41,459 nt of DNA from an uncultured Clostridiaceae bacterium. GTDB taxonomy: Bacteria > Bacillota > Clostridia > TANB77 > CAG-508. Position 1 is the stretch's first letter, and every line of letters begins with the position of its first letter. Made by a program: the position numbers and the translations under genes. The notes below the pieces were generated by a model. The model worked only from the letters and a program-made list of their open reading frames with translations. It made no database searches and was not told where the DNA came from. This document shows positions 8,701 to 17,953 of this stretch, piece by piece. The DNA is taken from contig CAOKMR010000012.1 of assembly GCA_948469815.1 (NCBI GenBank), positions 1 to 41,459 on the forward strand, given 5' to 3'.

Positions 8701-10134
8701 ATGGACAAAGAATTTGTAAAAGAGGTAACAAACATAGAAGAAGACTTTGCAAAATGGTATACAGACATAGTATTAAAAGCAGACTTAGCAGATTACACAG
8801 GAACAAAAGGATGTATAGCAATCAAACCATATGGATATGCAATTTGGGAAAATATACAAAAATATACAGATGAGATATTCAAGAAAAACGGAGTAAAAAA
8901 TGTATATTTTCCTGTTTTAATACCAGAAAATTTATTACAAAAAGAAAAAGATCATGTTGAAGGATTTGCACCAGAAGTAGCAACAGTTACAGAAGCAGGA
9001 GGAAAAAAATTAGATGAAAAACTATGTATAAGACCGACATCTGAAACAATGTTTTGCGATTTATACTCAAAATGGTTAAAATCTTGGAGAGACTTACCAT
9101 TTGTATATAACCAATGGTGTAATGTATTAAGATGGGAAAAAGAAACAAGACCGTTCTTGCGTTCTAGAGAATTCTTATGGCAAGAAGGGCATACAATACA
9201 TGAAACAAAAGAAGAAGCAGAAGAAAGAACACTACAAATGTTAGACATATATGCAGAAGTAATAGAAAATATACTTGCAATACCAGTATTAAAAGGAAAA
9301 AAGACAGAAAAAGAAAAATTTGCAGGAGCAGAAGCCACATACACAGTAGAAACACTAATGCATGATGGTAGAGCCATTCAAGCAGGAACATCACATTACT
9401 TTGGACAAAACTTTACAAAACCATATGATGTAAAATTCCAAAATAGAGTTGGAAAAGACGAATACCCATATCAAACATCATGGGGAATAAGTACAAGACT
9501 AATAGGAGCTACAATCATGGCACATGGAGACAACCGTGGACTAAAACTTCCACCAAAAGTTGCACCAATACAAGTAGTAGTAGTACCAGTAATGATGAAA
9601 AAAGAAGGAGTAGTAGAAAAAACAACAGAAGTTTATGAAAAATTAAAACAAGAATTCAGAGCAGAAATAGACTTAAGAGAAAACTATACACCAGGATATA
9701 AATTTAATGACTGGGAACTAAGAGGAGTACCAATAAGAATAGAACTAGGACCAAGAGACATAGAAAACAATGTATGTGTAATAGTAAGAAGAGACACATT
9801 AGAAAAAGAAACAGTAGACTTAGACAAGTTAAATGAAAAAATAAAAGAAACATTAGAAGACATACAAAAAAATATGTATGAAGAATGTAAAAAAATAAGA
9901 GAAGAAAGAACGACAACAGCAGAAAACTTAGATGAATTTGTAAAAAATATAGATGAAAAACAAGGATATATAAAAACAATGTGGTGTGGAAAAGAAGAAT
10001 GTGAAAACAAAATAAAAGAACTAACAGGAGCACACTCAAGATGTATACCATTCACACAAGAAAAACTAGGCAACAAATGTGTATGCTGTGGCGACAATGC
10101 TAGTATTATGGTAGTATGGGGAAGACAGTATTAA
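8701..10134 (+). CDS. proS: prolyl-tRNA synthetase, archaeal/eukaryotic type (ProS type 3)
   Basis: Class II synthetase that charges tRNA-Pro. The 477-aa protein lacks the editing insertion of the long bacterial type. It contains the class II motif 2 region (RWEKETRPFLRSREFLWQEG), the anticodon-binding domain (about 285-400) and a C-terminal cysteine-rich domain with Cys pairs in MWCGKEEC and KCVCCG that suit zinc binding. The chain ends exactly in Tyr477; in the Thermus enzyme of the same type the terminal Tyr inserts into the active site, and the match in length and last residue suggests the same here. RBS AAAGGAG precedes the ATG. The last nine codons and stop are the first part of a tandem repeat extending downstream. 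No T-box leader is present. Confidence 0.96.
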   Translation: MDKEFVKEVTNIEEDFAKWYTDIVLKADLADYTGTKGCIAIKPYGYAIWENIQKYTDEIFKKNGVKNVYFPVLIPENLLQKEKDHVEGFAPEVATVTEAGGKKLDEKLCIRPTSETMFCDLYSKWLKSWRDLPFVYNQWCNVLRWEKETRPFLRSREFLWQEGHTIHETKEEAEERTLQMLDIYAEVIENILAIPVLKGKKTEKEKFAGAEATYTVETLMHDGRAIQAGTSHYFGQNFTKPYDVKFQNRVGKDEYPYQTSWGISTRLIGATIMAHGDNRGLKLPPKVAPIQVVVVPVMMKKEGVVEKTTEVYEKLKQEFRAEIDLRENYTPGYKFNDWELRGVPIRIELGPRDIENNVCVIVRRDTLEKETVDLDKLNEKIKETLEDIQKNMYEECKKIREERTTTAENLDEFVKNIDEKQGYIKTMWCGKEECENKIKELTGAHSRCIPFTQEKLGNKCVCCGDNASIMVVWGRQY

Positions 10135-10393
10135 AATAGCATTGGAGCGTGGAAAATTTGCGAAGCAAATTTTACTAGCCTCCAACAGAAATTATGGTAG
10201 TATGGGGAAGACAGTATTAAAATAGCATTGGAGCGTGGAAAATTTGCGAAGCAAATTTTACTAGCCTCCAACAGAAATTATGGTAGTATGGGGAAGACAG
10301 TATTAAAATAGCATTGGAGCGTGGAAAATTTGCGAAGCAAATTTTATAGCCTCTAGCAACGATTATGGTGGTATGGGGACGTCAGTACTAATA
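10105..10393 (+). repeat. 86-bp tandem repeat that includes the proS 3' end and a hairpin
   Basis: Units start at 10105, 10191, 10277 and 10362 (periods 86, 86, 85); the last is partial and diverged. Each unit begins with the final 30 bases of proS (codons 469-477 plus TAA) and continues with a palindrome whose core is AAAATTTGC-GAA-GCAAATTTT, flanked by TTGGAG and CTCCAA arms. Units 1 and 2 look identical, unit 3 differs at a few positions near its end, and unit 4 decays. The same palindrome core lies after the P-type ATPase gene at 17875-17908. Confidence 0.92.
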
Positions 10394-10467: not shown

Positions 10468-10514
10468 ACCCAAATAACCCAAATCCGAATAAAAGATGCA
10501 AAAGAGGAGGAATA

Positions 10515-12491
10515 ATGGATTTACAGAAATTTATGAAATCGGACAGTTCTACGAAATTAGAACTAATATTTAAAAATTTAGATTTTGTATCGAAACTGGA
10601 AACTGAAGAATTAAATATAATACTTTTATCTTTAGAATATGAAGATAGGATAAAAATATTAAGAAATATAGATTTTCTTAAAAAAAGCAATATTCTACAA
10701 AAAAAAGAGAGAATAATAATATTACTTATAAATTTAAGAGAGGAAGATAAACAAAGATTATTATTAGATAGAGAATTTGTAGAAAAAGATTTAAATTTAG
10801 ATGGTGTTGTAATAGCAATAATTATCATGAGCCTTGAATTTAACGAAATAAAGTTAAAAATGATTAATTTATATTTTGATAAGATTAGTAGAAAAGCGAT
10901 AGGAATGATTTTAGAATCATGTCCTAGAGATACTATAATATCAATTATAATTAAAGAAGAATATAAATTTAGTAAAGTAGTAATAGAAGAGATTCTTAGT
11001 AGTATAAAGGTAGATTTATTAGTAGACATTTTTATAGAATACAAAGAAGTTTTATATGAAAAAAGTATAACAATTTATGATATTATAATGAGAGCAAGCG
11101 AAGATGTGCAATTAAAAATTATATCAAAGCTTTTAGAGATAGGCATAACTGATAAAGAAAAGAAGGGAATATTAACTGTTTTAGATGATAAACAGAAAGA
11201 TAAACTTGACAAATCTATTTTTATGCAAGAAGAAACAGAGTATAAACTACAAGTTAGTCATGAGATAGGAGGTAAATATGGAAAAATTGTAGTTGATTTT
11301 AGCAAAGATTTAGAAATATATAAAGACTTAGACGAACTAATTTATGTAAATCCAATGGAATTGAAAGATGAAGAAAGAGTTAAAATTCAAGAATTAGAAG
11401 AAATTTGTCCAAATATAAGAATATCAGATGATATAGGACTTTCAACTGTTACACTAGAAGAATATAAAGAGGCTGAAAATTGGATTGACTCAATATTGAA
11501 AGGAATAAATACAAAGTGGACCAATATCCAAAAAGTAGCATATGTAGATCATGTATTGGGTAAAAACATAACTTATTGTCCATATCTGGATACAGAAATA
11601 TATAATAGCGAAGAAATACAAAATAGTTGGAATCTTATAAATAAAAAAATGGGTATATGTTATGGAATATCGGTAGCTGAAAAATATATATTAAGCAAAA
11701 TGGGAATTGAAGCAGAAGTAGTTAAAAGTAAAGAACATGCTTTTTTAGAGTTAAAAAATATAGAACTTTCCCAAAAAGATGGAGAAGTAGTTAAAGGAGA
11801 TACATATTTAGATTCTACTTGGAATCTAGCAATTAACAGATATGGTGGAATACCTGAAAACTTTTGTAATACTTATGAAGAGATAAGAAAATATGATATA
11901 ATAGAATCAAAGGGGATAGATACAGAAACACACAAGATTAATGAAAATGGTGTTACTTTAGGTTTAGATAAAAGAAATGTAAGAGAAATATTCAAAAGTA
12001 TAGAAGTTACAGATAAAAAGGGAAATTTTCCATTACAAAAGTTTATGAGTATGTCTAATAAGATAGATGCTTTTGGATTTCCAGCAGAAAAAGCAATAGA
12101 AATTCAGTTAATGTTGCTTTCTAGCTATTGTCCAGAATTTGCTATATGCCAAAATGAAACAGCCAGTATATTAAAAGGAATATTAAGCAATATAAAATTC
12201 AATAGATGTGTAGTAAATAGAGTGTATGAGAGAGAGGATGAAAATAAACAACCAATATTATATGTATATGCAGATTTACCAGAAGTAGGTAAAAGATTTT
12301 ACTTTGCAGACAAAGAAACAAAATCGTTTGTAGAATTACCAGAAAAGGAATTTGAGCAAAAATTTGAATGTTATCAAAAAGACTTAGAAAAGCAAAATGG
12401 ACATAGACCATGGGAAGATATAGAAGAAAGTCAAGAACACCTATATAAAAATTCTATACTAGAAAAAGCAAAAAACGTAGGAGGAAGATAA
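10515..12491 (+). CDS. helical-repeat protein with transglutaminase-like cysteine-protease domain
   Basis: A 658-aa protein, apparently cytoplasmic (no signal or transmembrane segment). Residues 1 to about 240 are a string of Leu/Ile/Lys-rich helices in two-helix units, reminiscent of HEAT-like scaffolds. The central part carries a transglutaminase-like (papain-fold) triad in the correct order: Cys382 in KKMGICYGIS, His408 in SKEHAFLEL and Asp433 in TYLDSTWNL. Residues about 480-658 are unassigned. A strong RBS (GAGGAGG) precedes the ATG. The next gene starts one base after the stop (TAA A ATG), so they are translationally coupled. Transglutaminase-like domains in bacteria act as proteases, peptidases or cross-linkers; substrate and reaction here are unknown. 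I do not recognise the whole protein. Confidence 0.75.
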   Translation: MDLQKFMKSDSSTKLELIFKNLDFVSKLETEELNIILLSLEYEDRIKILRNIDFLKKSNILQKKERIIILLINLREEDKQRLLLDREFVEKDLNLDGVVIAIIIMSLEFNEIKLKMINLYFDKISRKAIGMILESCPRDTIISIIIKEEYKFSKVVIEEILSSIKVDLLVDIFIEYKEVLYEKSITIYDIIMRASEDVQLKIISKLLEIGITDKEKKGILTVLDDKQKDKLDKSIFMQEETEYKLQVSHEIGGKYGKIVVDFSKDLEIYKDLDELIYVNPMELKDEERVKIQELEEICPNIRISDDIGLSTVTLEEYKEAENWIDSILKGINTKWTNIQKVAYVDHVLGKNITYCPYLDTEIYNSEEIQNSWNLINKKMGICYGISVAEKYILSKMGIEAEVVKSKEHAFLELKNIELSQKDGEVVKGDTYLDSTWNLAINRYGGIPENFCNTYEEIRKYDIIESKGIDTETHKINENGVTLGLDKRNVREIFKSIEVTDKKGNFPLQKFMSMSNKIDAFGFPAEKAIEIQLMLLSSYCPEFAICQNETASILKGILSNIKFNRCVVNRVYEREDENKQPILYVYADLPEVGKRFYFADKETKSFVELPEKEFEQKFECYQKDLEKQNGHRPWEDIEESQEHLYKNSILEKAKNVGGR

Positions 12492-12492
12492 A

Positions 12493-12714
12493 ATGAGTTT
12501 CATTAAGAATTTATTTGAACTTATGAAAAATATATTCAATAAAAAATCTGATAATAAAATGATACAAGCACCTATTGAAACACAGACAAGCAGAGAAAAA
12601 TTAGAATTTGCCAATTCATTAAAAGTAGACACACCAAAAACCAAAAAGAAAGAAGTAGAAACAATGATATGTTATGGTGATGGGCTAGGAATACAAAACA
12701 AAATAAATTATTAA
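12493..12714 (+). CDS. 73-aa protein coupled to the transglutaminase-like gene
   Basis: A small basic protein starting at the ATG one base beyond the upstream stop; the RBS (GGAGGAAG) lies inside the end of the upstream gene. The N-terminal 20 residues (MSFIKNLFELMKNIFNKKS) form a clear amphipathic, basic helix suited to membrane or protein docking. The middle is polar, and the C-terminus contains MICYGDGLGIQNKINY, with the only Cys. No family recognised. Tight coupling suggests it is a partner, substrate or localisation factor of the 658-aa protein; this is inference. Confidence 0.75.
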   Translation: MSFIKNLFELMKNIFNKKSDNKMIQAPIETQTSREKLEFANSLKVDTPKTKKKEVETMICYGDGLGIQNKINY

Positions 12715-12720
12715 AAAAAA

Positions 12721-12762
12721 TTAGCACTTTATATTGACAAGTGCTAATTTTTGGTATATTAT
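12721..12762 (+). promoter_or_regulatory. CIRCE operator overlapping the groESL promoter
   Basis: TTAGCACTT (12721-12729), 9 bases, AAGTGCTAA (12739-12747) is an inverted repeat matching the HrcA-binding CIRCE element; the innermost pair is T/A instead of the classic C/G. The promoter TTGACA (12734-12739), 17 bases, TATTAT (12757-12762) overlaps the element, so HrcA would block polymerase directly. hrcA itself is not in the window. Confidence 0.93.
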
Positions 12763-17876: not shown

Positions 17877-17953
17877 TGCGTGGAAAATTTGTGAAGCAAA
17901 TTTTACTCGTATTATAATTCGCAGATGTCGGAGTAACAATAATAACGATAATA
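17823..17953. repeat. 30-bp duplication of the ATPase gene end flanking a palindromic insert
   Basis: The 30 bases at 17823-17852 (starting GATGTCGGAGTAAC) recur exactly at 17924-17953. Between them lies an imperfect palindrome: TGCGAATATTAAAATAAT... against ...ATTATAATTCGCA, with the core AAAATTTGT-GAA-GCAAATTTT. The core plus GCGTGG on its left and ACT on its right match the unit after proS. Direct repeats on both sides resemble a long target duplication or a slippage product. Confidence 0.9.

Follow-up and report, generated by a model that had tools for sequence, protein, structure and literature searches.

Layout and distribution of the two-gene locus

The window, by which we mean the whole stretch of 41,459 nucleotides that was analysed, carries on its forward strand (+), which is also the strand of the ribosome-binding sites, domains, codons and partner segments given below, a gene for a putative transglutaminase-like enzyme of 658 amino acids (10515..12491), identified from its open reading frame and its relatives. 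It is followed by a partner gene of 73 amino acids (12493..12714), recognised by its reading frame and by conserved pairing. Each gene is preceded by a strong ribosome-binding site, GAGGAGGA in the case of the enzyme gene (10504..10511) and GGAGGAAG in that of the partner gene (12480..12487), the latter lying within the enzyme gene. A single base separates the TAA of the first gene (12489–12491) from the ATG of the second (12493). Both reading frames are exactly those proposed in an earlier note on this DNA, and the coupling of the genes that it had claimed is confirmed.

Upstream of the pair lies proS (8701–10134). Directly behind the pair, and before groES/groEL, a CIRCE (HrcA-type) operator of the form TTAGCACTT-N9-AAGTGCTAA is located at 12721–12747; we read this operator and groES/groEL as a unit separate from the pair. 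An 86-bp tandem repeat (10105–10391; 3.3 copies at 95%) precedes the pair, its unit consisting of the last bases of proS and a perfect hairpin, AAAATTTGCGAAGCAAATTTT. The hairpin core recurs with one mismatch at 17885–17903, right behind the stop codon of another gene, and the tandem repeat is absent beside the further copies of the pair that we inspected.

In the congeneric genome G001, proS (94.7% identical) is followed by about 30 bases and then by the same CIRCE operator and groES, the pair being absent. Comparison of this empty site with the occupied site in the window shows that the pair is gained or lost as a unit. Within the family of the window 65 of 292 genomes match the enzyme at E≤0.01, many of the matches being full-length with 31–46% identity, and further members, in other families of the order, were revealed when 336 genomes of that order were searched with a profile. 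A 341-genome sample of the whole class yielded matches in the window's own family only, and no relatives were present in the phages, plasmids and viral contigs searched. As far as sampled, the pair appears to be confined to one order of gut Clostridia. Given this single-order range, the differing flanks and the same site being empty in a congener, the locus is probably a stand-alone, insertable two-gene cassette whose first gene would encode the enzyme and whose second would encode its adaptor.

Domains of the enzyme and assignment of its core

Single-sequence AlphaFold predicted helix pairs across residues 1 to about 238, that is the N-terminal third of the enzyme (10515..11228; block pLDDT mostly 57–80), in line with the helical-repeat front described in the earlier note. 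The alignment, which likewise served to delimit this array, revealed that the repeats of the window's enzyme are about 60 residues shorter than those of most relatives, owing to an in-frame deletion. The catalytic core was placed at about residues 310–445 (11442..11849) on the basis of alignment and profiles. Sequence and alignment locate the predicted catalytic Cys382 (codon 11658..11660), His408 (11736..11738) and Asp433 (11811..11813) at precisely the positions that had been claimed. The triad, whose variability would have spoken against the proposal, is invariant in 34 of 34 aligned full-length relatives, with many more invariant residues around it. Across three subfamilies (the window's enzyme plus 90 domain sequences), cysteine is found in 91/91, histidine in 86/88 and aspartate in 86/87, the latter two denominators being the sequences that have a residue at the respective position. 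A conserved C-terminal α/β domain (about residues 480–625; 11952..12389) was delimited by alignment and by split-ORF relatives; it is probably an independent unit because three relatives (L164, L165, L167) encode it as an ORF of its own. A signal peptide is not evident in the enzyme sequence. For most close pairs, dN/dS values of about 0.2–0.4 for the enzyme and 0.14–0.5 for the partner point to purifying selection on the two genes, one close pair being too similar to measure.

Scans of both proteins against Pfam, NCBIfam, PHROGs and PADLOC returned nothing significant, and neither protein falls into a named family there. Against Transglut_core (PF01841) the window's enzyme scores 12.3 bits, below the Pfam cut-off of 23, and 20 of 34 relatives match the same family weakly (best E 6e-4). 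When the enzyme family was compared by hhalign with a set of six transglutaminase-like domains (L091 is clearly recognised by Pfam, and two from the same genome lie above the cut-off), the probability was 97.7% (E 1.5e-12) and Cys, His and Asp were all aligned. The weak family matches and the hhalign result also bear, at the profile level only, on the possibility of a fold unrelated to transglutaminases. In the single-sequence models the core reaches a pLDDT of 42–44; at this low confidence, the predicted order of a helix near the cysteine followed by strands with the histidine and the aspartate is the same as that in transglutaminases. Foldseek found no match for these models, in which the core is not confidently built. 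Fold searches are uninformative here because only the helical array was built in the models. Searches of the PDB by sequence and by profile gave weak, chance-looking matches only. We thus assign the core to the transglutaminase-like (papain-like) superfamily on the strength of profiles rather than of a curated cut-off or a structure. By its triad the enzyme would be a cysteine peptidase or transferase. A weak AbiEii match on the helical region was judged to be due to chance, and among the PADLOC defence models the best match of the enzyme amounted to 14 bits over 56 residues, the partner having none.

The partner, its tail and its portable module

In 57 of the 58 loci with room downstream, the partner adjoins a group-1 enzyme; at the remaining locus (L158) the enzyme is full-length and the partner reduced to a truncated remnant. 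An automatic count based on the tail gave 55, to which the partners at L164 and L165, with diverged tails below the cut-off, were added by inspection. The two ORFs mostly overlap or lie nearly adjacent, and in many loci the stop codon of one overlaps with the start codon of the other (gap −4). A second subfamily comprises shorter enzymes with about 25–31% identity and has a related partner on the opposite side, immediately upstream, in nine of nine loci seen. This partner measures 68–84 amino acids and has the same layout; in its tail, the usual sequence is NGYxI or NGFxI and the cysteine is often missing. That the pair is kept despite inverted gene order is strong evidence for a functional link. 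The survey for conserved co-occurrence, far from revealing homologues regularly devoid of the small gene, leaves virtually no room for the view that the small ORF is unrelated to the enzyme or adjoins it by chance, which is refuted by the 57/58 loci, the conserved sequence and the opposite gene order in the second subfamily.

No neighbour other than the partner is conserved among the relative loci, and flanking genes vary by genome. Enzyme and partner distances correlate in a mirror-tree comparison (r=0.79, n=23), a value that includes the contribution of species phylogeny. In several genomes (L074, L075, L130, L166) the enzyme is decayed or missing and the partner intact; partner genes or tail remnants with no detectable enzyme alongside were seen at L130, L131, L132 and L149. 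A 'giant ORF' of 24,248 amino acids containing part of a relative (G197:C2, L182–L185) was dismissed as an artefact of 72,000 masked N bases.

The partner consists of two conserved parts. Its tail, VETMICYGDGLGIQNKINY (12655..12711), was delimited by conservation among partners, and the consensus VETLxCxGDGLGIQxKI is exclusive to partners of this enzyme. Of 59 tail matches, 58 also bear the N-terminal module, the exception being a broken remnant. The tail is the most conserved part of the protein (G64 in 61/61, C60 in 60/61, G62 in 59/61 and G66 in 60/61), and Q68 is kept in 49 of 61 partners. Glutamine is the natural acyl donor of transglutaminases. However, Gln68 is replaced in 12/61 partners and thus is not an obligatory acyl donor; cross-linking of the partner via this residue was set aside, and a transglutaminase reaction on the tail glutamine appears unlikely.

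The other part, delineated by profile searches (12493..12627), is a module made up of a basic amphipathic helix (residues 1–18), a loose L-E-x-P-like segment and F39-x-x-S-L-K44. With a broader model it was matched in 155 of 284 genomes at E≤0.02. A model built from this enzyme's partners only gave 86 matches at E<0.005 among the 8558 ORFs of the fetched loci, some of which had been selected because they matched; the same model gave 0–1 matches in shuffled and 0 in reversed sequences. The module occurs as a C-terminal fusion on unrelated large proteins of 264–922 amino acids, and also on small ORFs that immediately follow genes for HD-domain, helicase and sigma/alpha-CTD-like proteins, among others. 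Its presence as a fusion in some cases and as a separate coupled gene in others argues for one and the same function in cis and in trans.

The carriers of the module are diverse. Six large unrelated proteins of 504–922 amino acids bear it at the C-terminus (L144:1633-3447, L224:3620-6388, L225:878-3634, L226:1817-3616, L227:3132-5090, L228:3216-4730); the one that was scanned, at L144, has no Pfam match. Other loci (L133–L142, L146, L234–L238, L242, L243) encode proteins mostly of 100–140 amino acids that combine the module with a coiled-coil-like half. Their genes are mostly located right behind those of large proteins (HD-domain, helicase, RNAP alpha-CTD/sigma region 4-like), several of which also have coiled-coil-looking C-termini. 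A protein of 269 amino acids (L145:2996-3805) has the module near its C-terminus, and its first part (YHITREESADKILQSGYIRPSG) looks ADP-ribosyltransferase- or Tpt1-like by eye, without support from Pfam.

Possible roles of the pair and relation to known systems

We favour, with about as much doubt as confidence, a model in which the partner is a two-part adaptor for the enzyme, composed of a shared targeting half and a tail that is specific to the enzyme and would hold or regulate it. The enzyme would probably be a cytoplasmic cysteine peptidase or transferase, with an α-solenoid ahead of its core and a small α/β domain behind it. Judging from the amphipathic helix alone, the N-terminal helix and FxxSLK of the adaptor would form a targeting module that most likely brings its client to the inner face of the membrane, and the tail most likely docks on the core or on the C-terminal domain. 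Catalytic activity, the membrane as target, contact between tail and enzyme, and regulation are what we infer from these features. The adaptor model is favoured because it is the simplest reading that the shared half goes where the module goes and that the private half binds the enzyme. The adaptor alone, however, does not explain partners that survive without an intact enzyme (L130, L131, L075, L166), and these count against it.

A partner with two conserved elements might also be a substrate or an inhibitor. The enzyme might act as a peptidase on the glycine-rich tail, with cleavage for instance at GDG/LGI, or might modify Cys60, so that a short conserved peptide would be released from a precursor. 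It is compatible with this that the tail is the partner's most conserved part and that a transglutaminase-like peptidase, with its narrow cleft, would accommodate the glycine core of the tail; moreover, McjB-type lasso leader peptidases (C96) are transglutaminase-like cysteine proteases that act on a small precursor (PMC10885120, PMC10318531). Yet conserved maturation genes, such as a cyclase or a transporter, are lacking in the vicinity, the cysteine has been lost in several partners belonging to the short-enzyme group, Q68 is not fixed, and the N-terminal half also occurs where there is no such enzyme and is thus not a dedicated leader, all of which makes a substrate role rather unlikely in our view. 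A RiPP cluster was set aside, there being no other cluster gene.

A role as toxin and antitoxin, or as an enzyme and its inhibitor, is less probable still: the enzyme would harm the cell and the tail of the partner would block its active site. Two closely coupled genes in a cassette of sporadic occurrence, whose site is empty in a congener, are what such a pair might look like, and loci with a decayed or absent enzyme next to an intact partner (L075, L166, L074, L130) form a pattern that is suggestive only. Against this stand the full-length enzyme with a truncated partner at L158, the sharing of the module by many proteins that have no toxin link, the lack of a substantial PADLOC match and the absence of the pair from phages and plasmids. 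The earlier note had left open whether the small protein is a substrate or a localiser. Of these, the localiser, or adaptor, fits better; a dedicated substrate, as it was stated, is at most partly supported, since the N-terminal half is portable and Gln68 replaceable. The note's broader proposal, namely that a Cys-His-Asp domain of transglutaminase type is functionally linked to a small partner and that the two match no known system, is supported by our data.

Beyond the adaptor model for this one enzyme, the module may tentatively be seen as a general intracellular delivery code, a possibility that we would not call probable. The code would bring dozens of unrelated proteins to one site, with the module either fused C-terminally or carried on a coupled adaptor with a client-specific half, and the enzyme would be one client among them. 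To our knowledge, no such system of targeting or secretion has been described, and a search of the open-access literature retrieved no account of either the pair or the module. Should it act as a signal for targeting or secretion, the module would show what an undescribed cellular system delivers. The module was uncovered in about half of the genomes sampled from a gut family that is large and mostly uncultured, and an unannotated transglutaminase-like family gains a defined, testable partner with a conserved motif.

Among known proteins, those with Transglut_core (PF01841, papain-like clan) share with this enzyme the order and spacing of Cys, His and Asp, as reflected in the weak family matches and in the triad aligned by profiles. 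In contrast to them, the enzyme has an α-solenoid and a C-terminal domain that belongs to no named family, and a small partner accompanies it almost obligatorily. Among known systems that pair such an enzyme with a small gene, the closest is the lasso leader peptidase system (McjB/B2, Transglut_core3 PF13471, MEROPS C96; PMC10885120, PMC10318531), in which a transglutaminase-like cysteine enzyme likewise stands beside a small gene. Here, however, no cyclase and no other biosynthetic or transport gene is conserved nearby, the sole conserved neighbour being the partner, which is highly conserved across genera and whose first half is common to unrelated proteins. The LapG/BTLCP periplasmic proteinases (PF06035) are also bacterial transglutaminase-like cysteine enzymes, whereas the enzyme described here has a helical-repeat front, no evident signal peptide and no match to PF06035. 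The helix of the module resembles those of the MinD/FtsA kind in being short, basic and amphipathic with a similar hydrophobic moment. Unlike them, it is part of a portable tag that includes the conserved FxxSLK and resides on a separate adaptor or is fused to many proteins. Overall, the enzyme represents a known kind in a new form, and a larger novelty may plausibly lie in the portable module.
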